From NCBI GenBank assembly GCA_030148505.1, contig JASBTI010000041.1:62001-126000 (forward strand): 64,000 nt of DNA, in the 5' to 3' direction. The stretch's first letter is position 1; every line of letters starts with the position of its first letter. The notes under the pieces are model-generated. The model ran no database searches, was not told the origin of the DNA, and saw only the letters and a program-made list of their open reading frames with translations. This document shows positions 37,267 to 48,298 of this stretch, piece by piece. The stretch is from Rhodanobacter sp. Lineage in GTDB: Bacteria > Pseudomonadota > Gammaproteobacteria > Xanthomonadales > Rhodanobacteraceae. Position numbers and translations under genes: made by a program.

Positions 37267-37764
37267 ATGGCACGCGGTATCAACAAAGTCATTCTGGTGG
37301 GCAACCTGGGCGCAGATCCGGAGATGCGCCATACCGGTGGCGGTACGGCGGTAACCACGCTGAACGTTGCGACCTCGGAAAGCTGGACTGACAAGCAGAG
37401 CGGTGAGAAGGTCGAGAAGACCGAATGGCACCGGGTGAAGATGTTTGGCCGGCTGGCTGAAATCGCCGGTGACTATCTGAAGAAAGGTCGGCAGGTCTAT
37501 ATCGAAGGTTCGCTGCGTACCGACAAATACACCGGTAAGGACGGCATCGAACGTTACAGCACGGACATTATCGCCAACGAGATGCAGATGCTGGGGGGGA
37601 ACGAGGGTGGCGGCGGGCAGCGCGAGCGCCCGCAAAGCGCCAGTAGTGGCCAGCGCAGCAACTACGGTGGCCAAAGCCGTGGCGGAAGCGAATCCGGCGG
37701 TGTGCCGAGCCATGCACCCGCGCCCGCCGATACGGGTTTTGCCGACGACGATATTCCGTTCTGA
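37267..37764 (+). CDS. ssb: Single-stranded DNA-binding protein
   Basis: A 165-residue SSB. The N-terminal OB fold (about 1-110) starts [19 protein letters not shown] and has [22 protein letters not shown] flexible Gly/Ser/Gln-rich linker follows, and the acidic tip DDDIPF binds replication and repair partners. It coats single-stranded DNA as a tetramer. It follows the YajR-like transporter gene after a long gap. Confidence 0.97.
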
Positions 37765-37802
37765 GAGACCCTGGGTTCCGTCCTTGGCGCGGCCGCGTAA
37801 GA

Positions 37803-38189
37803 TCAGCCAGTAGGTCGCTTGGGTCCCGTTCCGCGGAAAGTTAACAAGAGGTTCAGAGCATCGAGGACCGCCTTCATGTGGTAGGGTTTCAATAGCAGGC
37901 GTGCATTCTGGAAACGTGCCGGCAGCGCCTCCGCGCCGTGGCCCGAAGAGAACAAAAAGGGAATTTCTCGGCGCTGGCACTCGTCGGCAACAGGAAAACT
38001 GGAGTTTGGGCCCAATCGGATGTCGAGAATGGCAGCGTCGACGGGGTGCTCGGTCAGCATGGCCAACGCTTCTTCTACCCTTGTCGCGATGAGTACGCGA
38101 TAACCGACGCTACCGAGCAGATCTTCCAGGAGCATCGTGACCAAAGGTTCGTCTTCGGCCACGAGGACGCAGTATGCGGGTTCATTCAT
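37803..38189 (-). CDS. Single-domain response regulator (receiver), end of the kai operon
   Basis: A protein of about 128 residues that is one CheY-like receiver. VLVAEDEP gives the acidic pair, AAILDIRLG the phosphoacceptor Asp, SSGHG the switch Ser region, and LLLKPY the conserved Lys. No output domain is present, so it likely passes phosphate on or acts by protein contact. The start is uncertain: ATG 38189 gives a compact receiver, and an in-frame ATG at 38225 adds twelve residues. It lies 69 bases after the hybrid kinase gene and is the last gene of the kaiC-kaiB-kaiB-kinase run. Confidence 0.8.
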   Translation of the reverse strand: MNEPAYCVLVAEDEPLVTMLLEDLLGSVGYRVLIATRVEEALAMLTEHPVDAAILDIRLGPNSSFPVADECQRREIPFLFSSGHGAEALPARFQNARLLLKPYHMKAVLDALNLLLTFRGTGPKRPTG

Positions 38190-38258
38190 CAAGGTACGGC
38201 TCAATAGGGTAGGGGCGACGAGCATGATTTTTGGATCGGCAGGGCTGGTGCTGGTCGC

Positions 38259-40331
38259 TTACGGTGATGCGGGTGATTGCAAAGCGGCGCTTACGGCGAT
38301 CGATAGGTCAATCTGGCTATAAGGCTTGCGTAGAATCCTCGCGGCGCCGTTGCCCTCTTCCAGTGACCCGGCATGGCCGGTATAACCCGAAGTCAGCAGT
38401 ATCGGAATTTGTGAATACTTGGCCTCTATTTCGCGAGCCAGATCGAAGCCGCTCATTTCGCCTGGCATGATCACATCACTAAAGACCAGATCCACTGATC
38501 TGTGCTGCTCGATCATTTCCAGAGCAGCATATCCCCGGTCTGCCTCCAGCACGCCGTAGCCCAGGTTACGGAGCATGCTGCTAGCGATCTGGCGGACATC
38601 ATGGTCGTCCTCCACCACGAGTACAGTGCCGCGGCCCTTGACTTCTTGCCGTATGGAATTGTCCTGCGCTTGTTGGGTTTGCTCGATCGCGCGGGGCAGG
38701 AAAATAGAGACCGTAGTCCCTTGCCCGAGCGCGCTCGCGATTGAAACAAAGCCGCCCGACTGTTTGGCAAAACCATATACCTGACTGAGTCCCAAGCCAG
38801 TGCCTTTGCCGATTTCCTTGGTGGTGAAAAATGGCTCAAAAACTTTTGTGATCAGCTCGGGCGAGATCCCGGTGCCGGTATCAGTGACGGAAACAACAAC
38901 ATAGTTGCCAGCTTCTCCGCCAAGCAGCGCGCCCTCCCCTTGGTCAAGGGTTCGTGTAGCAGTGGCGATGGTCAACGTACCGCCTTGGGGCATGGCGTCC
39001 CGCGCATTGATAGCCAGGTTGAGAATGGCCGTTTCCAATTGATGGGGGTCGGTCTGGCACAGCCACTCTCCTGCGGCGGGAGCTATCTTCAGGATTACCG
39101 TTTCGCCGATGGCACGGTCAAGAAGGTTCTGGAATGTTGCCATCAGCTCATCAAGGGATACGGCCTCGACGCGGAGATCCTGGCGGCGTGCAAAAGCGAG
39201 CAGCTGTTGGGTAAGTTTGGCACCACGGCTCACCCCTTGCCGCGCCGTCCTTAGATATAACTGCGCCCCAGGGTTGTCGGCTACCCTGATTTCAAGAAGA
39301 TCAAGACTGCCCGCGACGATCATCAAAAGATTATTGAAGTCATGGGCGATGCCACCGGTCAACTCGCCGATCGCTTCCATTTTCTGGGCTTGCCGCAATT
39401 GCTCGTCGAGCAAGCGACGTTCGGTGATATCCGATACGACACCGGCAATACGTATGGGCGTCGCGTTGCGATAATAGGTCAGCCCTCTGACCTGGATCCA
39501 GCGAAGGGCATTGTCGGTAGGGCGCCGAATGCGTTTTTCGAAGTCGACGACACCGGTGAGTCGCGCTCGTGCGAATGCTTCGGTTACGGCAGGGCGATCC
39601 TCGGGTAAAAAGCGCGAGAGCGTAATGCGCGGATCCCATGTTGTCGCGGTATTGAAATGGCCGAAAATCTGGTTGTAGCGGGAGGATCGAATCAGGTTGC
39701 CCGTGACCAGGTCAAGGTCCCAGTTGCCCATGTCCGCGGCATCCAGAGCCAACTGAAGACTGGCCTCAGCGCGAGTGCGTACCTCAATCTCATTGGCCAG
39801 CAAAATATTGGCACTAGCCAGTTCGTCCCGGCGTTTCCGGATGACAGTCAGATCCGTGACCACGCAGCAAATGATCCTCGACTGCTCGGGTTCGACGGCG
39901 AGCTCTACCATGGAGATCGTCACCGGCACTTCGAGCGAGTCCTGCCGGATCATGTTGAACTCTGCCGAACGGCTGGCATCGAGCATCAGGAAATCGTCAA
40001 AGCGAGCTCGCTCGGAGGGAGCCAGCAAAGCCTGAATATGTTGCCCGATAAGTGTGTTTCTAAGTCGGCCAACCAGTGTGGCCAGACGCTGGTTGCAGTA
40101 TAAAATGGTACCGTCGCAGCCAAGAGTTACAGCGCTTTCCTGCATCTGCTCGATCAGCACGCGATAAGGACGATCGGCGCTCTCGAGCGTATAAACCTGC
40201 TGGCCCGAGGTGCCTGCGCCGACGACAACGGCATCGACATCTCCGTTGCGAATTGCATCGAGGGTTTCTTCGGCTTCCCGAAGTCGTTGCTCCAATTCGG
40301 CGATGCGGTCTTGGGGAGTGACTTGGACCAT
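38259..40331 (-). CDS. Kai-associated PAS/PAS hybrid histidine kinase
   Basis: A 690-residue soluble kinase. Residues 1-50 hold a helix and a DAIRNGDVDAVVV segment leading to a QVYTLESADRPYRVL stretch, a head seen in many PAS kinases linked to kai genes. PAS domains follow at about 55-165 and 190-305, then HisKA with AHDFNNLL (His330), HATPase with NARDAMP and GTGLGLS, and a receiver from about 567 with Asp619 as phosphoacceptor. It starts 11 bases after kaiB, so KaiB/KaiC state may control it. No membrane segment is present. Confidence 0.88.
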   Translation of the reverse strand: MVQVTPQDRIAELEQRLREAEETLDAIRNGDVDAVVVGAGTSGQQVYTLESADRPYRVLIEQMQESAVTLGCDGTILYCNQRLATLVGRLRNTLIGQHIQALLAPSERARFDDFLMLDASRSAEFNMIRQDSLEVPVTISMVELAVEPEQSRIICCVVTDLTVIRKRRDELASANILLANEIEVRTRAEASLQLALDAADMGNWDLDLVTGNLIRSSRYNQIFGHFNTATTWDPRITLSRFLPEDRPAVTEAFARARLTGVVDFEKRIRRPTDNALRWIQVRGLTYYRNATPIRIAGVVSDITERRLLDEQLRQAQKMEAIGELTGGIAHDFNNLLMIVAGSLDLLEIRVADNPGAQLYLRTARQGVSRGAKLTQQLLAFARRQDLRVEAVSLDELMATFQNLLDRAIGETVILKIAPAAGEWLCQTDPHQLETAILNLAINARDAMPQGGTLTIATATRTLDQGEGALLGGEAGNYVVVSVTDTGTGISPELITKVFEPFFTTKEIGKGTGLGLSQVYGFAKQSGGFVSIASALGQGTTVSIFLPRAIEQTQQAQDNSIRQEVKGRGTVLVVEDDHDVRQIASSMLRNLGYGVLEADRGYAALEMIEQHRSVDLVFSDVIMPGEMSGFDLAREIEAKYSQIPILLTSGYTGHAGSLEEGNGAARILRKPYSQIDLSIAVSAALQSPASP

Positions 40332-40342
40332 GAAACCATGCC

Positions 40343-40660
40343 CTACCGGGGAACGCTGGCCAATAGGCTGAGGCCAGCCAGTACGCGATCCGGATCGGAC
40401 ATGTCACCGATGGTACGTCGCGATGGTTCGGGCAAGAGCTTGATCAGGGTGGGAGTTGCAATCACCTGCAAGTCGCGGGTTGCCTCCGGATTTTCATAGA
40501 CGTCGATGATCTCCAGGTCGTATTGGCCATGCAGACGCTCTTCGCAAATGCGCTGCAGGTTTTCGATAGCTCGCGTCGATCGGGGGCTCGAGCCGGAAAT
40601 GAACAGACGAAGCCTGTATGGGGCCATCATGCGCGTGGCATCGCCTGCGTCGATACTCAC
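40343..40660 (-). CDS. kaiB: KaiB-like protein (second, more divergent copy)
   Basis: A 105-residue thioredoxin-like KaiB family protein. [55 protein letters not shown] and DRVLAGL follow the KaiB pattern closely, but VAG is ISG and PPP is PEP. KaiB proteins switch fold and bind KaiC. The start is a GTG at 40660 that overlaps the stop of the first kaiB in GTGA. ATGs ten and eleven codons in would give a compact product of about 95 residues. Confidence 0.9.
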
Positions 40661-41013
40661 GATGAGGCTGTCTCTCGTGGACAGATATCCAGGCCGACGA
40701 GCACGCGGTCGGTATTGGACAGATCGCCAATGACACGTTTGAGCGGAGGCGGCAATCGCCGTATCAAGGTAGGTAGAGCGATGATCTGGTCCCCCGCTGC
40801 CAACTGGGGTGTAATGGTAAGGTCGATGATCTCGATGAAATAGCGGCCGGTCAGATAGTTCTCACAAATGGTCTTCAGATTGCCGATGGCCGCCAATGAC
40901 TTCGGCGTTTGTCCCGCCACGTAGAGGCGCAGATTGTACGCGTCCGGTTCCGCTTGACCGATCTCCACGGAACAACCCTCAGCCACCTTGTGCTGTGCAC
41001 TTTCACTGGTCAC
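40657..41013 (-). CDS. kaiB: KaiB-like protein (first, canonical copy)
   Basis: A 118-residue KaiB with a short acidic N-terminal extension. The core is close to cyanobacterial Kai[19 protein letters not shown], an IEIIDL strand, [19 protein letters not shown] and [14 protein letters not shown]. KaiB binds KaiC in its thioredoxin-like fold and, in cyanobacteria, sequesters partner proteins. The start is a GTG at 41011-41013, which overlaps the kaiC stop by 11 bases. The frame is open to 41226, but that part is kaiC coding sequence in another frame. Confidence 0.93.
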
Positions 41014-42739
41014 GATGATGTCTCCGAATGGCTTCCATCGCGTCCCGCTCCGACCTGCGTGTCGTTTCCCGGATACCTTCCTCGTCGACGAACATCTGGA
41101 ATTCGTTTTCCTCCATTTCCAGTTCCGCTCGCATTTCGGCAATACGGAGTTCCACCAGCTCGCGCTTGCGGACCATCTCGCGGTGGCGACGTGCGGCGAG
41201 ATGCTGGCGTTGGAGCGAAGCATCATGTTCCCTTGCCTCCTGCGCTATCCGGGCGGTACCGGTAAGAACGCCCTCTGGCCCTACGTAGACATCAACCAGC
41301 TGGATGCCCCGACTGCTCAGCTGATATTCGCGCAGTTGCTTGGAATGGTCCATGCCCCGCGATTTAAGCAGGTATAGGACACGATTACGCTCTCCGTTCG
41401 CCTCGACATCGGCCAATGAGACCCAGGTATCCATCAAGGAAGAGACGCTTCGCTGGTTTTCGTTCAGAGGATCGTCGGGGGATGAAAGCGTGGTGAAGAT
41501 CGCCGTGATCCCGCGGCTCTTGCAGATGTCGGCTAGTCGTACCAGCGTGGCATGGATTTCGGATGACGGGCCGCGAAAGGCGGAAATCGGATCGACCACA
41601 ATGGCATTGGGCCTGAAACGTTCGATATCGCGATTCATCCGTGCCAGGTGCATCTCGAATCCGTAGAGGCTCGGACGAGCGGCTTCAAACTTGAGCAGCC
41701 CCGCATCGACATGCCGTTTGAGCTGAATGCCGACCGAATTCATGTTCCGGATGACCTGTTCCGGCGATTCCTCGAAGGCGAAGAAGAGGCATCGTTCTCC
41801 CCGTTCACACGCTGCGTTCACAAAGGAAGCGGAGAATGTCGACTTTCCGGTACCGGCCAGGCCCGAAATCAACACACTGGAGCTGCGATAGTAGCCTTGG
41901 ATGCCGAGCATGTCGTCCAATCCCGCAACGCCGGTCGGAACCGCTTCATTGGAGACGCAGTGCTCAAGGCCGGCCGAGGTGATCGGCAAAACACTGATCC
42001 CCTCCTGATCGATAAGGAACGGATACTCGTTGGTGCCATGCGCAGAGCCGCGGTATTTGACCACGCGCAGACGGCGTGTCATCACTTGATCCTCGACCCG
42101 GTTGTCCAGCAAGATCACGCAGTCGGACACATACTCCTCGATCCCATACCGCGTCAATTGACCTTCGCCGCGCTCACCGGTGATGATCGCAGTAACGCCT
42201 TTGTCCTTGAGCCATCCAAACAAACGGCGAAGTTCGGCGCGCAGCACGGCGCCGTCCGTGAAGCCAGAAAAGAGGGCTTCGATGGTGTCTAGAACAACGC
42301 GCTTGGCGCCGACCCTGTCGATGGCGTAATTGAGGCGTACAAATAGCCCTTCCAGATCGTACTCGCCGCTTTCCTCGATTTCGGATCGTTCGATATGAAC
42401 GTGGTCGATGACGAGTTTGCCGGCGGCAACCAGGTCGGTGAGGCGGAAACCAAGAGAGGCCACATTGGCATCGAGATCCTCGGGGCGCTCCTCGAAACTG
42501 ACAAAAACGCCTGGCTCACCGAATTCTGTCACCCCATTGACCAGGAAGGTCACGCCGAACAGGGTCTTGCCGCAACCGGCCGAGCCACATAGCAAAGTTG
42601 GCCTGCCACGAGGGAGGCCACCCAGCGTCAGGTCGTCCAGACCTGTGATACCGGTAAGAGCTTTCGAAAGCCGTGCGGCCGCGGCCTCATGTCCCTCCAC
42701 GATGCTGGGGATTGTGTGTTTACCCACGAGTTGCTCCAT
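41003..42739 (-). CDS. kaiC: KaiC-family double-RecA ATPase/kinase
   Basis: A 578-residue protein with two RecA-like domains. CI has Walker A GSAGCGKT (52-59) and a catalytic Glu pair (83-84). CII has GLAGTGKS (293-300) and a Glu pair (323-324). The cyanobacterial phosphorylation pair Ser-Thr aligns with Ser433-Ser434 in SVSSLMDT, so autophosphorylation is possible. Residues from about 497 to 578 form a charged, probably coiled-coil tail longer than in the cyanobacterial protein. No kaiA is present. It heads the minus-strand operon with two kaiB genes, a hybrid kinase and a receiver. Confidence 0.95.
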
Positions 42740-42961
42740 TTTTCAGATCGGACCAGACGTTGACGGCCTTGAAAGTCTATACCGTCTGGGGAAGTCTTCC
42801 CTCTCGAGAAGTCGGTGTGGAAGGGTACAGGCACGCTCCCCTGGCGTGCCTTTAGCCACAGGACCCTGGTCAGCTATTCCAGCATGCGTCCGGCGGTCCA
42901 AAAGGCACATATCATGCAAAAATGATAGCGCTCCAATGATAGCCAAAGGTGGCATCAATCC
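42740..42961. promoter_or_regulatory. Divergent regulatory region between kaiC and the CHASE3-like kinase gene
   Basis: This 222-base gap must carry promoters for both directions. It contains a perfect 13-base palindrome GGGAAGTCTTCCC (42789-42801), an inverted repeat CCAGACG/CGTCTGG (42753-42759 and 42783-42789), a seven-base-pair hairpin GGCACGC/GCGTGCC (42830-42850), and a direct repeat AATGATAGC (42921-42929 and 42935-42943). A TATCAT hexamer at 42910-42915 could be a -10 for the rightward gene. No complete sigma-70 promoter was recognised on either strand. Confidence 0.5.
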
Positions 42962-44764
42962 ATGATGAAGATGCACGATATAGCGCGATGGCGCATTGTG
43001 GGCTTGCTGCTCGCCGTGCTGGCGATTGTTGGGTTGCCCTATATCGTCACACTTTCCAATACACGCGACACGCAGCAGGCCGTGGGTCTGGTCATTCATT
43101 CCAATGCCGTCAAAACACTCACTTACAAAATCGCCTACGTGGTCAATGATAGTGAGGCGGCGAGCTATCGGCTGTTGACAGGGGACAGCGACCAACGGAC
43201 GCAGAAACGCGCTGCACGAGCAATCGGCGAGGTTTCTGGACTGCTTCAACGGCTGCGGGGAATGACACGGGATGATCCGGATCAGCAGATGTTGATCGGG
43301 GCACTCAGCACCAGCGTCAATGGCCGCATTATCCTGATCAGCCAGGCGTTAACCCGGCTGCACAAGGGAGATCGGGCGGGTGCCAGGCAATCACTGCGGG
43401 ATGCCTTCAACCTGTTCCAGATGAATGGGCAGGTCACCGCCATCGTGGAAAATGAGGATAATTTGCTGCGGACCCGACAGGTGATCGCGCAGCGGCAGGC
43501 CTTCGAGGCCCGCACCATACTCACGGTTACCGCCCTCGCCCAGATCCTGTTGTTGACGGTTATTGTGATCATGTCCGAAAGGCAGATCGGCAGGCGACGC
43601 CTGGCGGAGATCCGCGAGAATCGAGCGGTGCATCGCTCGCAATTGATCCTGCATACCTTGCGCGAGCCGATTGCCTTGTTCGATGAGGATTTGCGATGCC
43701 TGCTGGCGAACGAAGCATTTGCCGAGTTGTATGGACTGGATGCACAACAGCCCTTGCAGCCCTTGGCCAAGCTCGGCAACGGTGCCTGGAGCGACAGCGT
43801 GCTGTTGCAGCGTCTTAGCGACGTACTTCTGCGTGACCGCGAGCTATGGGACTACGAAATGACCCAACGGACGGTCGATGGATCGGACCGGCGAGTGATG
43901 ATCAATGCGCGTCGCTTGAAGTCGAGGGAAGTCGACACGCCGACGTTGTTATTGACGGTCAGCGATATCACCGCTCGTGCACTGGTCGAGCAACGGGTGA
44001 ACGAGCTCAATCGGCAACTGGAGGGTAAGGTATCCAAAATCTCCGACGTCAACCGTGAATTGGAGGCCTTCAGTTATTCGGTGTCTCACGATCTACGCGC
44101 GCCGCTGCGGCACATTGCCGGCTTCGCGCGCAAGCTTGATCAGCATATGGGCGACCAGCGCGATGACAAGTCGGCGCACTATATCGAGGTGATTGCCAGC
44201 TCCGCTCAGCGGATGGCGATGCTGATCGACGATCTGCTGGTGTTCTCGAGGCTTGGTCGCGGCGCCTTGCGCATGCAGGCGGTGGACATGCAATCGCTGG
44301 CGGAGGAGGTGCGTGCCGAGGTTGACTCCGCCATCCAGGGCCTGGATCGCCGCATCCGGTGGAATCTGGCTCCGCTGCCGATGGTGATTGGTGACGAGAA
44401 CATGCTGCGGACGGTATGGCAGAACTTGCTTGGAAACGCCGCCAAATACACTAGCCAGCGCGAGATTGCCCATATCGACGTGAGCGTACGCCAGGACCAG
44501 CGTGGTGACTATGAGTTCACCGTCACCGATAACGGCGCCGGCTTCGACATGCAGTACGTCGACAAACTGTTCGGCGTGTTTCAGCGCTTGCACCGCGCCT
44601 CGGAATTCGAGGGCAATGGCATCGGCCTTGCGAACGTTCGCCGGATCGTGACGCGCCATGGCGGCCGGGTCTGGGCCGAAGGTAAACTTGGAGAAGGCGC
44701 TTCCTTCCATTTTTCGCTACCGGCCACTGACCTGGCGGGAGCACAGAGTAGAGACCTGGCATGA
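42962..44764 (+). CDS. Membrane histidine kinase with CHASE3-like sensor and PAS
   Basis: A 600-residue sensor kinase. Transmembrane helices at about 11-31 and 186-204 flank a helical periplasmic region of CHASE3 type. A PAS domain lies at about 225-340, then a coiled linker, a HisKA of the phytochrome-like kind (FSYSVSHDLRAPLRHI, His376) and a HATPase with NLLGNAAKYT and EGNGIGLA. It lacks a receiver. It diverges from kaiC and overlaps the next receiver gene by four bases (ATGA), which is probably its phosphotransfer partner. Confidence 0.9.
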   Translation: MMKMHDIARWRIVGLLLAVLAIVGLPYIVTLSNTRDTQQAVGLVIHSNAVKTLTYKIAYVVNDSEAASYRLLTGDSDQRTQKRAARAIGEVSGLLQRLRGMTRDDPDQQMLIGALSTSVNGRIILISQALTRLHKGDRAGARQSLRDAFNLFQMNGQVTAIVENEDNLLRTRQVIAQRQAFEARTILTVTALAQILLLTVIVIMSERQIGRRRLAEIRENRAVHRSQLILHTLREPIALFDEDLRCLLANEAFAELYGLDAQQPLQPLAKLGNGAWSDSVLLQRLSDVLLRDRELWDYEMTQRTVDGSDRRVMINARRLKSREVDTPTLLLTVSDITARALVEQRVNELNRQLEGKVSKISDVNRELEAFSYSVSHDLRAPLRHIAGFARKLDQHMGDQRDDKSAHYIEVIASSAQRMAMLIDDLLVFSRLGRGALRMQAVDMQSLAEEVRAEVDSAIQGLDRRIRWNLAPLPMVIGDENMLRTVWQNLLGNAAKYTSQREIAHIDVSVRQDQRGDYEFTVTDNGAGFDMQYVDKLFGVFQRLHRASEFEGNGIGLANVRRIVTRHGGRVWAEGKLGEGASFHFSLPATDLAGAQSRDLA

Positions 44765-45207
44765 AAAGGCGTGATTTGAGAACTATCCTCCTGGTTGAGG
44801 ATAGCCAGGCCGACGCCGAAATGACGATCGACGCGTTGGGAGAGGCGCGGTTGGCGAATCCGGTCGTCCATCTTGAAGACGGTGTCGATTGCCTGGATTA
44901 TCTGTACGCTCGCGGAGCATGGGCCAACCGTGAGCCTGGTGATCCGGTGGTGGTGCTGCTGGACATCAAAATGCCCCGCATGAACGGTCTGGATGTACTG
45001 GCGCGTATGCGTGCGGATGAGCATCTGCGGCGGATTCCGGTGGTCATGCTGTCGTCGTCCCGCGAGGAGAGCGACCTGATGCACAGTGCCGATCTGGGCG
45101 CCAATGCCTATGTGATCAAACCGGTGGATGTCGACCAGTTTTTTGATGCCATACGTACACTCGGGCAGTTTTGGGCACTGCTCAATCAGCCGCCCGAACT
45201 GACATGA
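44761..45207 (+). CDS. Rcp1-like single-domain response regulator
   Basis: A 148-residue receiver of the type that partners phytochrome-like kinases. ILLVEDSQADAE gives the acidic pocket, VVLLDIKMP carries the phosphoacceptor (Asp68), MLSSSREESD is the switch region, and YVIKPVD has the conserved Lys. The long loop between strands, with LYARGAWANREPGDP, is typical of this group. It has no output domain. It is coupled to the preceding kinase and followed after 84 bases by a second kinase. Confidence 0.92.
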   Translation: MKRRDLRTILLVEDSQADAEMTIDALGEARLANPVVHLEDGVDCLDYLYARGAWANREPGDPVVVLLDIKMPRMNGLDVLARMRADEHLRRIPVVMLSSSREESDLMHSADLGANAYVIKPVDVDQFFDAIRTLGQFWALLNQPPELT

Positions 45208-45291
45208 TGGCGACATTGAATGTGGTAGTCGATCTCCATGGTGAGGTTGGGAAAGACAAGCGTCATTGCAGGGTAGTACCTAAGGATTCAG

Positions 45292-46878
45292 ATGCCACAA
45301 CGGCAACCACATTCAAGCTCGGCCATTCGCGTATTGCAGGTCGAGGACAGTCAGCTTGACGCCGAACTGATCCAGGCGGCACTCGATGAGGATGGTATCG
45401 AGTACGAGGTCATATTGGTCGATAGCGAGCCGGACTATGTTGCCTCGTTAAGCCATTTCAGGCCGGATATCGTATTGTCCGATTTGAGCCTGCCCGGTTT
45501 TTCAGGTGAGCGTGCGCTGCAGTTGCTGCGCCAACAGGACGAAGATCTTCCTTTTATTTTCGTCTCTGCCACTCTGGGCGAAGAGGCGGCAATCGAGGCG
45601 CTTCGCAAGGGTGCAACCGATTACATCCTGAAGGAAAAGCCGGCACGGCTGGCCACGGCCGTGCGCCGGGCACTGAGCGAAGCCTCGGCGCGACGTGCCA
45701 ATCGCCGCGCCGAGGTGGAGCTGATTCGGGCACAGCGCTTCGAGAGTCTGGCGATGCTTGCTGGCGGTCTTAGTCACGATCTGCGCAATCTGCTGCAACC
45801 CCTGTTGTTGGCGGGTGACAGCTTGCAGGACTACCAGAACGATCCGCGGCTGGCGCGGCTTGGCAAGCTGGTACGCGACTGTGGCAAGCGCGGCCTGGAC
45901 ATGGTGCAGTCGATGCTGTCTTTTGCACGGGGCGCGCGACGGGCTGAGCAAGTCCGGCTGGGTGCGTTGCTCAAAGCACTCGATCTGTTGATGCAGGGTA
46001 GCGTGCCACGCTCGGTATCCCTGGAACTGGTCATTGATGACCCGGAATTGTCTTTTGAGGGAAACCATACCGAGCTGCAGCAATGTTTGCTCAATCTGTG
46101 CCTGAACGGAATCCAGGCGATGCCAGACGGGGGCTGCCTTCGCATTGAGGCGACAAAACTGCAGCTGGCGGAAGATTTTTTCCGGCCAGACGAAGATGCG
46201 CGTGGCGGCCAGTATTTGCGCCTGAGCGTGATCGACAGCGGTATGGGTATGGATCAGGACGTGCTCGCGTGCCTGTTCGAGCCGTTCTTCACCACCAAGG
46301 ATGCCGGCACCGGGCTGGGACTGGTATCGTGCCAGCGAATCGTCAACAGCCATGGCGGTTTTATGCGGGTAGACAGCGCTCCGGGCAAAGGCACCCGCTT
46401 CGATCTCTACATACCGTTGCTGGACCAGGTGGCGGATGCCGAGCAGCTGCTTGAACAGGATGATCTGGAAGGTTCGGCCGAAAAGGTCCTGATCGCGGTA
46501 GAGGAGGCCGGGCAGCTGTCGTTGCTGGTCGATACGCTGGATGCCTACGGTTACCAGGCCCATGCCAGTCAGAGCGGAACAGCGGCGCTACAGTGGATCG
46601 AAGCTTTCGGATTGCCCGATCTGGTGGTACTGGATGCCGACATGAACCTGTTTACCGGTGTACGTACGATGGCCGCTCTGCTCGACTATGGCTACACCGG
46701 CGGGGTTGTGTTGCTGGCTCGCCCCGATGCTCCGCAGGATATCAGCGAATTGCCGCCAGTCAGGTCCATCTATATGGTGGACAAACCGGTTGACAGTCGA
46801 CTCCTGCTGGTGACGGTTCGACGGGCGCTAAAAGCCACTGGTACAGACGCTCCTGCTGGCGGCGAACCATCGGACTGA
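45292..46878 (+). CDS. Hybrid kinase, REC-HisKA-HATPase-REC
   Basis: A 528-residue soluble protein. The N-terminal receiver (about 12-128) has VEDSQLD and LSDLSLPG with Asp64. A HisKA-type segment with GGLSHDLRNLL (His162) follows, then a HATPase (NGIQAMPDGG, GTGLGLVSC). The C-terminal receiver-like domain (about 397-518) keeps a candidate Asp448 (VVLDADMN) and Lys (VDKPVD), but its acidic pocket is changed to IAVEEAG, so it may be partly degenerate. It could receive phosphate from the kinase and receiver upstream. An AAGGA site precedes the ATG. Confidence 0.88.
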   Translation: MPQRQPHSSSAIRVLQVEDSQLDAELIQAALDEDGIEYEVILVDSEPDYVASLSHFRPDIVLSDLSLPGFSGERALQLLRQQDEDLPFIFVSATLGEEAAIEALRKGATDYILKEKPARLATAVRRALSEASARRANRRAEVELIRAQRFESLAMLAGGLSHDLRNLLQPLLLAGDSLQDYQNDPRLARLGKLVRDCGKRGLDMVQSMLSFARGARRAEQVRLGALLKALDLLMQGSVPRSVSLELVIDDPELSFEGNHTELQQCLLNLCLNGIQAMPDGGCLRIEATKLQLAEDFFRPDEDARGGQYLRLSVIDSGMGMDQDVLACLFEPFFTTKDAGTGLGLVSCQRIVNSHGGFMRVDSAPGKGTRFDLYIPLLDQVADAEQLLEQDDLEGSAEKVLIAVEEAGQLSLLVDTLDAYGYQAHASQSGTAALQWIEAFGLPDLVVLDADMNLFTGVRTMAALLDYGYTGGVVLLARPDAPQDISELPPVRSIYMVDKPVDSRLLLVTVRRALKATGTDAPAGGEPSD

Positions 46879-46912
46879 TTCAGGTCATCGGGTGTGACGC
46901 GCCCAGGTTGCC

Positions 46913-48298
46913 TCAATCGATGCCGAGTTTTTTCAGCTTGTAACGCAGTGCCCGGAAGGTGATGCCCAGTTTCCGGGCCGCGGCTGTCTTGTTGTAACGC
47001 GATTCTTCCAGCGCTTTGACGATGGCGGTGCGCTCGATATTACTGATGTAGTCGTCCAGCCCCCCATCGGCGGTCGTGGCAGGTGAGGCGTTGCCGGATT
47101 GCTGTGGACTGGTCGTCGGCTGGTTGAAACGGGAAGTCTGTTGGGGGAGCATCAGATCGTCGGGCTCAATACTGCCACCGTCACACATTGCCATCGCGCG
47201 TTCGAGGATATTCTCCAGCTCGCGCACGTTGCCGGGAAAGTCATAGCTTTCCAGCGCCTGCAGCGCCGCCGCTGACAACTGGCCGACCTCTTCGCCGCTC
47301 TTGCCTGCAAGCGACCTGAGAATGAAGTTGGCCAGCAGCGGAACATCGCCGCGCCGTTCGCGTAAGGGGGGGACGCGCAATTCGATCACGTTGATGCGGT
47401 AGAACAGATCCTGTCGAAATTGGCCTTGCTCGACCAGTTGACCGAGGTTTTTGTGGGTGGCCGAGAGAATCCGCACGTCCACCGGTATTTCGTCGCGCCC
47501 TCCAATCGGGCGAACCGCTTTCTCCTGGATCGCACGCAGCAATTTCACCTGCATGTGCAATGGCAGTTCGGCCACCTCGTCGAGAAACAGCGTGCCGCCT
47601 TCGGCTGCCTGAAACAGTCCCTGCTTGTCGGCGCTGGCGCCGGTAAAGCTACCCTTGCGATGCCCGAAAAATTCACTCTCCATCAATTCGGACGGGATGG
47701 CGCCACAATTGACCGGCACGAACGGACCATTGGCGCGGGGGCCTTGCTCGTGAATCAGGCGGGATACCAGTTCCTTGCCGACGCCCGATTCACCCGCGAC
47801 GTAGACCGGCGCCTGATTGCGCGCGAGTTTGGTGATTGTCGCGCGAACCTGCTGCATCGCCGGCGAGTTTCCGATCAGCCGCTCACTGGATCCGGCGTCT
47901 TCCCCCGCGCCGCCACCGTTGCGCTTTTCCTCGGCCAGCCGCAACGCCGTGCGAACCAGCCCGCGCAACATCTGGATATCGACCGGCTTGGAAACGAAAT
48001 CGAAAGCGCCGGCCTTGAGTGCGCTCACTGCGGCATCGACATTGCCGTAGGCGGTAATCATCGCCACCGGAGTATCCGGACAGTTTTCGGCGATCAACTC
48101 GATCACCTCCTGACCGTTGCCATCCGGTAGCCGCATATCGGTGAAACACAAGTCGTAACTGCGCTCGGTCAGCGCGCGCCGGGCTTCGGCGACCGTGCCT
48201 ACGGATTCGACCTGAAGATCCATACGCCCCAGCGTAATGGTCAGCAGTTCACGGATGTCGCGTTCGTCGTCGATGACCAGGACGGTCTGCAGGCTCAT
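46913..48298 (-). CDS. pilR: Type IV pilus response regulator PilR (NtrC family)
   Basis: A 461-residue sigma-54 activator. The receiver has Asp54 in FTDMRLPDG. The AAA+ domain has Walker A GESGVGKE (169-176) and the sigma-54 contact loop as GSFTGA (216-221). A Fis-type helix-turn-helix ends the protein, with NKTAAARKLGITFRALRY typical of PilR. It activates pilin (pilA) transcription with PilS. Here pilS is over 10 kb away on the same strand. The start at 48298 gives the family N-terminus, and the frame open to 48652 is not family-like. Confidence 0.93.
   Translation of the reverse strand: MSLQTVLVIDDERDIRELLTITLGRMDLQVESVGTVAEARRALTERSYDLCFTDMRLPDGNGQEVIELIAENCPDTPVAMITAYGNVDAAVSALKAGAFDFVSKPVDIQMLRGLVRTALRLAEEKRNGGGAGEDAGSSERLIGNSPAMQQVRATITKLARNQAPVYVAGESGVGKELVSRLIHEQGPRANGPFVPVNCGAIPSELMESEFFGHRKGSFTGASADKQGLFQAAEGGTLFLDEVAELPLHMQVKLLRAIQEKAVRPIGGRDEIPVDVRILSATHKNLGQLVEQGQFRQDLFYRINVIELRVPPLRERRGDVPLLANFILRSLAGKSGEEVGQLSAAALQALESYDFPGNVRELENILERAMAMCDGGSIEPDDLMLPQQTSRFNQPTTSPQQSGNASPATTADGGLDDYISNIERTAIVKALEESRYNKTAAARKLGITFRALRYKLKKLGID

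Follow-up and report, generated by a model that had tools for sequence, protein, structure and literature searches.

A minus-strand operon in the genome of a soil-type Rhodanobacter sp. (3.68 Mb, 49 contigs), lying within a 64,000-nucleotide stretch of contig JASBTI010000041.1 (the window), encodes KaiC, two KaiB proteins, a PAS-PAS hybrid histidine kinase and a single receiver. Judged by sequence comparison, it is probably a KaiBC timer of the R. sphaeroides kind that is complete in itself and has a reader kinase of its own, and the three signalling genes diverging from it are probably a separate neighbour. The kinase starts with a module of about 55 residues, which is encoded next after kaiB in several phyla, shows higher conservation than the PAS domain it precedes and is joined to exchangeable output domains. 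We put forward, with slightly less than even confidence, that this module is a new, dedicated KaiB-KaiC docking domain unrelated to that of SasA, linking KaiA-less timers of Pseudomonadota, Bacteroidota and others to interchangeable outputs (HisKA, HisKA_2 and HWE kinases and c-di-GMP enzymes), with the second KaiB as an old, fixed adaptor. The operon features are:

41003..42739, minus strand: kaiC (578 amino acids), double domain, KaiC2 / R. sphaeroides type
40657..41013, minus strand: kaiB1, canonical KaiB clade, with a predicted GTG start within the end of kaiC
40343..40660, minus strand: kaiB2, second-position KaiB, outside the canonical clade
38259..40331, minus strand: hybrid kinase, 690 amino acids, module-PAS-PAS-HisKA-HATPase-REC
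40158..40310, minus strand: candidate N-terminal 'Kai-reader' module of this kinase (amino acids 8-58 as compared)
37803..38225, minus strand: single receiver (REC domain), the last gene of the operon

The eight genes listed in a preliminary description of this locus were all recovered with the coordinates, strands and domains given there, and the first five form the single tight operon it proposed. The open reading frame of kaiB1 (189 amino acids) runs back into kaiC, but the actual gene has approximately 118 codons, its likeliest start being the GTG at 41013, which gives an overlap of 11 bp with kaiC; kaiB2 starts with the GTG at 40660, overlapping the kaiB1 stop by 4 bp, and gaps of 11 bp and 33 bp separate kaiB2 from the kinase and the kinase from the receiver. 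Pfam recognises KaiC (PF06745 in two stretches, 365 bits), both KaiB proteins (PF07689, 79.7 and 89.1 bits) and, in the last gene, a receiver domain alone; a receiver of this type also lies 3' of the kinase in 4 other genomes (G167, G165, G172 and G171). Of the named relatives found, Rhodanobacter sp. FW106-10_bin.24 is nearest, with 92% KaiC identity.

By sequence, the window KaiC belongs to the R. sphaeroides / KaiC2 type. It has a double domain with Walker A and EE motifs in both CI and CII, 2 serines at the CII phosphorylation site (RSVSSLMDT) and 97 residues beyond the SSRGIQL motif. Its closest solved relative is R. sphaeroides KaiC (PDB 8dba, E = 1.5e-196), residues 4-556 of which align with residues 23 to 574 of the window KaiC, including the coiled-coil tail, a C-terminal extension of about 50 residues. 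The KaiC2 subgroup, with its two serine sites, has been described as the main holder of such tails (PMC10076222). The serine pair is present in 42/42 module-linked KaiCs of our alignment with a readable site (genome G940 is outside the alignment; loci L137 and L051 are unreadable there). No other double-domain KaiC is encoded in the genome, the remaining PF06745 matches reaching at most 44 bits per stretch, on other contigs. The absence of kaiA, as originally described, was borne out within the reach of Pfam: at E ≤ 0.1 the genome has no PF07688 match, S. elongatus being positive as the control (the KaiA3 type was not searched), and the KaiA expected of a cyanobacterial KaiABC oscillator was accordingly not found by this search. 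A KaiA3 (divergent KaiA) orthologue has been reported in R. rubrum (PMC10931921). Within the family, kaiC is carried by 15/233 genomes, including 8 of 45 Rhodanobacter genomes, and no phage record searched for kaiC matched at 1e-20.

The best-studied counterpart is the R. sphaeroides KaiBC hourglass (PMC10076222; PDB 8dba, 8fwi, 8fwj), whose proteins are described as autophosphorylating without KaiA, forming a dodecamer and being driven by ATP/ADP. The two systems share a near-full-length match of tailed KaiC, the serine sites, KaiB, the lack of KaiA and an immediately following gene for a kinase that begins with the same module. They differ in that R. sphaeroides has one KaiB and an HWE kinase, whereas the window operon encodes a second KaiB, a hybrid kinase of the HisKA kind and a receiver.

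Kinases encoded 3' of such kaiB genes share their N-terminus, a helix with LRxRLxEAEETLxAIRxGEVDAL followed by a short strand pair that ends in VYTLxxAD and precedes a PAS domain (module starts were compared in 41 chosen rows). In the operon kinase, this module spans approximately the first 55 residues. It matched no Pfam family at E ≤ 1e-3, and when a profile of kinase residues 1-180 was compared with solved structures, no match started before profile position 48, and nearly all started at position 52 or later (among the best 60 of 114). The AlphaFold2 model of the same residues (33 rows) predicts a helix at 6-28 with confidence, a hairpin at 34-48 less firmly, and a PAS fold. In 37/37 rows, the module is more identical to the window kinase than the following PAS domain is (medians 56% versus 29%). 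Like SasA, the cyanobacterial output kinase that binds KaiC, the operon kinase is presumed to read the Kai complex; unlike SasA, it has no KaiB-like domain (no PF07689), and its module has no solved-structure match ahead of the PAS part among the best 60 of 114.

The domains behind the module vary. Pfam analysis of 30 module proteins identified 19 with HisKA (3 of them, from L036, L126 and L132, below the Pfam cut-off), 1 with HisKA_2, 5 with HWE and 2 with GGDEF-EAL, the remaining 3 having no known catalytic domain, one of which (L039) is truncated by a contig end. In G940, an 802-residue module-PAS protein encoded behind kaiB (L177:113-2518), in which Pfam detects only PAS, is a possible novel output type; a second module-PAS copy lies behind another kaiB in the same genome (L178).

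To follow the module across genomes, we used a profile, A1 (22 rows, 59 positions, built from kai-linked proteins). The window kinase scores 102 bits against A1, of which it is itself a row, and its module lies 36 bp behind the KaiB2 domain; the match is the sole one in the genome, and the divergent kinase lacks the module. Over 398 genomes of the phylum, A1 matched in 13, and the 10 matches at E ≤ 4.3e-8 fell in exactly the 10 genomes with a KaiC that shares 48% identity or more with that of the window; the 23 other genomes with a KaiC, at 34-40% identity, gave no match. Matches of approximately 20 bits in G432 and G357, with neither KaiB nor KaiC within 20 kb around each, were taken as noise. 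When all candidate proteins were scored, 27/27 genomes with the window KaiC type had exactly one match (17 of them contributed no row to A1), and none of 7 kai-less Rhodanobacter genomes had any. Among 13 further genomes with this KaiC type, reached via named loci, 11 had one match and 2 had none (8 of the 13 contributed rows to A1), so that overall the module is present once each in 38/40 genomes. G128 (KaiC 54% identical, module present in L052) is outside these whole-genome searches. At the level of loci, 74 were examined (L024, L035 and L038 were dropped as lying on the same contigs as L040, L051 and L042), and 47/47 module matches sit 3-69 bp behind a KaiB stretch or its remnant, on the same strand; most of these loci were chosen for kaiC, and the specificity of the module rests on the whole-genome searches. 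The order kaiC-kaiB-(kaiB)-kinase recurs in Rhodanobacteraceae, Bradyrhizobium, Sphingomonadaceae, rhizobial plasmids, Bacteroidota and others. A single-sequence module search of plasmids found the Pararhizobium kai locus only and missed that of R. sphaeroides, making it a weak test.

Among 72 genomes without this KaiC type (in G229 and G390, 89 of 108 and of 110 candidates were scored), 9 matched A1 at E ≤ 0.01, of which those at E > 1e-3 were taken as noise; only G940 and G340 fell below 1e-4. The match in G340 (1.6e-6) is in a 1039-residue PAS protein that has lost about 35 module residues, kaiBC loss and module decay going together in this single case. Directly before that protein is an 84-residue in-frame fusion (L173:8577-8828) of approximately the first 50 residues of KaiC and the last 30 of KaiB, a relic of a lost kai pair. 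G940 has 2 matches (approximately 3e-8 and 4e-8), each directly behind a kaiB. At E < 1e-4, the genomes searched thus gave module matches behind kaiB or its remnant only.

Several observations weigh against a dedicated docking domain that accompanies this timer. The KaiCs of G940 are only 36-39% identical to that of the window and yet occur with the module; because of this, the module's tie is, at the level of sequence, to KaiB rather than to KaiC2 alone. Conversely, L033 and L034, both from metagenome-assembled genomes (MAGs), have this KaiC type with no module anywhere in the genome, the gene after kai being CRP-like and transporter-like, respectively, as judged by eye. In all, 10 KaiB loci are without the module (L033, L034, L053, L138-L143 and L179). 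The 398-genome search scored at most 16 candidates per genome, and part of the sensitivity of A1, though not its specificity, is built in through its kai-linked source proteins. The hairpin at 34-48 is modelled with lower confidence (block predicted local distance difference test values of 61-76). Finally, adjacency to kaiB could also select a private linker. The KaiC tail was considered as the docking site of the module and rejected, because 3 loci with short-tailed KaiC (L037, L039 and L134) still carry the module.

The 2 KaiB stretches of the operon are the only ones in the genome, and their order follows a general pattern. In a tree of 72 KaiBs (100 columns, excluding 7 loci with distant KaiC, L053 and L138-L143), one branch with support 99/83 comprises the first-position KaiBs of 28/28 two-KaiB loci; this canonical branch also includes 15/16 single KaiBs (the exception is L126) and no second-position KaiB. 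The second KaiB of the window is placed second, like those of the 27 other two-KaiB loci in the tree, and second-position KaiBs outside the canonical branch come from Pseudomonadota, Bacteroidota, an Acidobacteria MAG and an Omnitrophota MAG. The first- and second-position sets differ at many alignment columns. These distributions suggest that the second KaiB is likely to be old; several second copies are long-branched, and neither their being one clade nor a single origin is proven by the tree. The AlphaFold2 model of KaiB2 has the fold-switched, thioredoxin-like state, and having been made for KaiB2 alone does not discriminate it from KaiB1; the top 13 structures that Foldseek matched to it are those of KaiB (fold-switched, R. 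sphaeroides and Legionella) and of the SasA N-terminal domain. The fixed order of the two KaiB clades raises the question of what the second KaiB does.

We propose that the operon works as follows. KaiC would autophosphorylate without KaiA at high ATP/ADP, as the R. sphaeroides work indicates, and KaiB1, after a fold switch of the kind seen in that work, would bind the CI ring of the phosphorylated KaiC. The module may dock on the complex of KaiB and KaiC so formed, or KaiB2 may serve it as an adaptor; it would then set the balance between kinase and phosphatase activity in the protein at whose head it stands, with phosphate passing to the REC domain of the kinase and to the receiver encoded next. 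The module would act in the manner of the KaiC/KaiB-reading domains of SasA and CikA, but the kinase lacks a KaiB-like domain, and the module has been joined to different outputs in the course of evolution. CikA binds fold-switched KaiB and uses a pseudo-receiver and a GAF domain, a possible parallel if the module binds KaiB.

The direction of signalling could also be the reverse, with the PAS kinase sensing redox or oxygen and setting the Kai timer, as has been suggested for R. sphaeroides (redox input is cited in PMC5520375, and the idea is also reported in PMC10931921). The modelled PAS part of the kinase does resemble the PAS folds of FixL and DosP. Input of this kind nevertheless appears unlikely: the module is retained in front of differing catalytic ends, and it is the module rather than the PAS domain that is the better conserved in every row compared. 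Furthermore, no histidine kinase is known to phosphorylate KaiC.

Alternatively, the module might be a mere dimerisation helix and PAS cap without physical contact with KaiBC, retained through common descent of a mobile operon. The model, in which helix and hairpin precede the PAS fold, would fit this explanation, as would the correlation between KaiC identity and the identity of kinase residues 1-175 (r = 0.88; 630 pairs from 36 loci, short or doubtful kinases excluded). We consider it rather improbable, given that catalytic ends have been swapped with the module retained, that the module decayed where kaiBC was lost (G340, one case) and that A1 matched no second protein in any of the 27 and 11 module genomes.

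The preliminary description had treated the operon and the genes that diverge from it, across a shared control region, as one nine-kilobase island, the layout suggesting a soluble phosphorelay steered by KaiC and the KaiBs. The remaining features are:

42740..42961, no strand: divergent intergenic region, scanned for promoters and terminators
42962..44764, plus strand: CHASE3-like-PAS-HisKA-HATPase kinase (Pfam), triad gene 1
44761..45207, plus strand: single receiver (Pfam), triad gene 2
45292..46878, plus strand: REC-HisKA-HATPase-REC protein (Pfam), triad gene 3

The divergent kinase is matched at E ≤ 1e-80 in 42/45 Rhodanobacter genomes, one each, compared with 8 genomes that carry kaiC, and the triad order (kinase, receiver, REC-kinase-REC) is kept in 16/16 other Rhodanobacter loci whether or not kai is present. 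The right half is therefore, on these comparisons, a locus that almost every member of the genus has; the left half is an accessory operon. Kinases standing without kai genes in relatives, named at the outset as an outcome that would speak against the island, are thus what is seen for the divergent half. Among Rhodanobacter, the two halves adjoin only in the window genome and its close relative G167; in the 6 other kai-bearing genomes they are 34 kb (G172), 43 kb (G165) or approximately 700 kb (G171) apart or on separate contigs (G173, G174 and G189). The divergent kinase, without the module that marks the operon kinase, is probably not part of the Kai unit.

The single island is not without support, and the following points count against the separateness of the triad. 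Besides the direct adjacency in the window genome and G167, orthologue-level kinase and receiver genes lie near kai in two other genomes, in other arrangements: in G642, the best receiver match is approximately 2.4 kb from kaiC with a kinase alongside, and in Sinorhizobium sp. B11, relatives of the triad lie 3-4 kb upstream of kaiC (identities of 56% for the receiver, 50% for the kinase core and 49% for the receiver part alone of the third gene). At a cut-off of E ≤ 1.4e-20, 24 genomes have an orthologue-level receiver, of which 23 were counted (G167 was dropped as a near-copy) and a receiver on another contig was scored as not adjacent; approximately 0.11 kai-adjacent cases would be expected by chance and two lineages were seen (P approximately 0.006, post hoc), the Sinorhizobium plasmid being a third lineage outside this count. 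Set against the genus-wide distribution, the distances in the other kai-bearing genomes, the retained triad order and the missing module, one island steered by KaiC and the KaiBs is nonetheless hard to credit, and the triad would be a signalling locus of the genus in its own right, to which the operon is adjacent by happenstance. What survives of the Kai-steered phosphorelay is its left half, the kai genes and the hybrid kinase being a recurring unit with the module, and not the triad. Solubility likewise applies to the operon kinase, as judged by eye; the divergent kinase is probably a membrane protein because it has two hydrophobic segments (by eye) in addition to a CHASE3-like stretch (26.5 bits, below the Pfam cut-off of 28). 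The genes on either side of 42740..42961 are indeed divergent, and no promoter- or terminator-like signal above that of shuffled sequences was found in this interval; across 37700-47000 such patterns were no commoner than in shuffles (3 versus 4.1 and 7 versus 7.3).

The linkage itself is known: outside cyanobacteria, kaiC-kaiB is almost always followed by a kinase or a GGDEF/EAL gene, and RtaNt, a different N-terminal domain, belongs to kaiB-less loci (PMC3164672). The window gene order is of the former kind, and its gene content, with kaiB present twice, sets its kinase apart from RtaNt kinases. A PAS kinase beside kai genes is described in R. palustris (PMC4794148) and R. rubrum (PMC10931921), and a PAS protein of a kai operon is mentioned in PMC6627678. 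In the titles and abstract beginnings of the open-licence papers listed by our searches, we found no description of the shared module or of two KaiB clades, and no paper of that library contains both 'kaiBC' and 'Rhodanobacter'. Relative to print, what appears new from the sequence comparisons is the common N-terminal module across kaiB-linked proteins and the two KaiB clades in fixed order. How the state of a KaiA-less timer is read out to the cell is not defined in the literature seen, and the module names one 55-residue piece as a candidate for Kai binding, including in R. sphaeroides, where KaiBC structures and kinetics are known. It also provides a sequence handle by which kinases coupled to Kai could be recognised among the numerous other PAS kinases that a genome encodes.

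Variations on the operon were seen elsewhere. In Telluribacter (L028, L029), the gene immediately 5' of kaiC, on the same strand, encodes a receiver (receiver-kaiC-kaiB-kaiB-kinase); a single receiver has thus been added to one or the other end of the operon, depending on the phylum. The kinase behind kaiB on plasmid p2 of Sinorhizobium sp. B11 (L068:7892-9374) is annotated as two overlapping genes, with stops in one frame. G703, in which A1 found no module match genome-wide, has two kaiC genes in one cluster (L139), the second followed by a HisKA-HATPase-REC kinase.

In G165 and G172 (L041, L043), kai lies 2-4 kb from ssb as in the neighbourhood of the window operon, but inverted, and in the kai-less G155 (L145) an ssb gene lies 9 kb away from the divergent kinase; if these ssb genes (67-72%) are orthologous, the DNA between ssb and that kinase may be variable. 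The triad receiver (44761..45207) is presumably Rcp1-like. Across kai and triad genes 1 and 2 (38001-46000 of the window), G+C content dips to 0.57-0.59, with flanks at 0.60-0.63.

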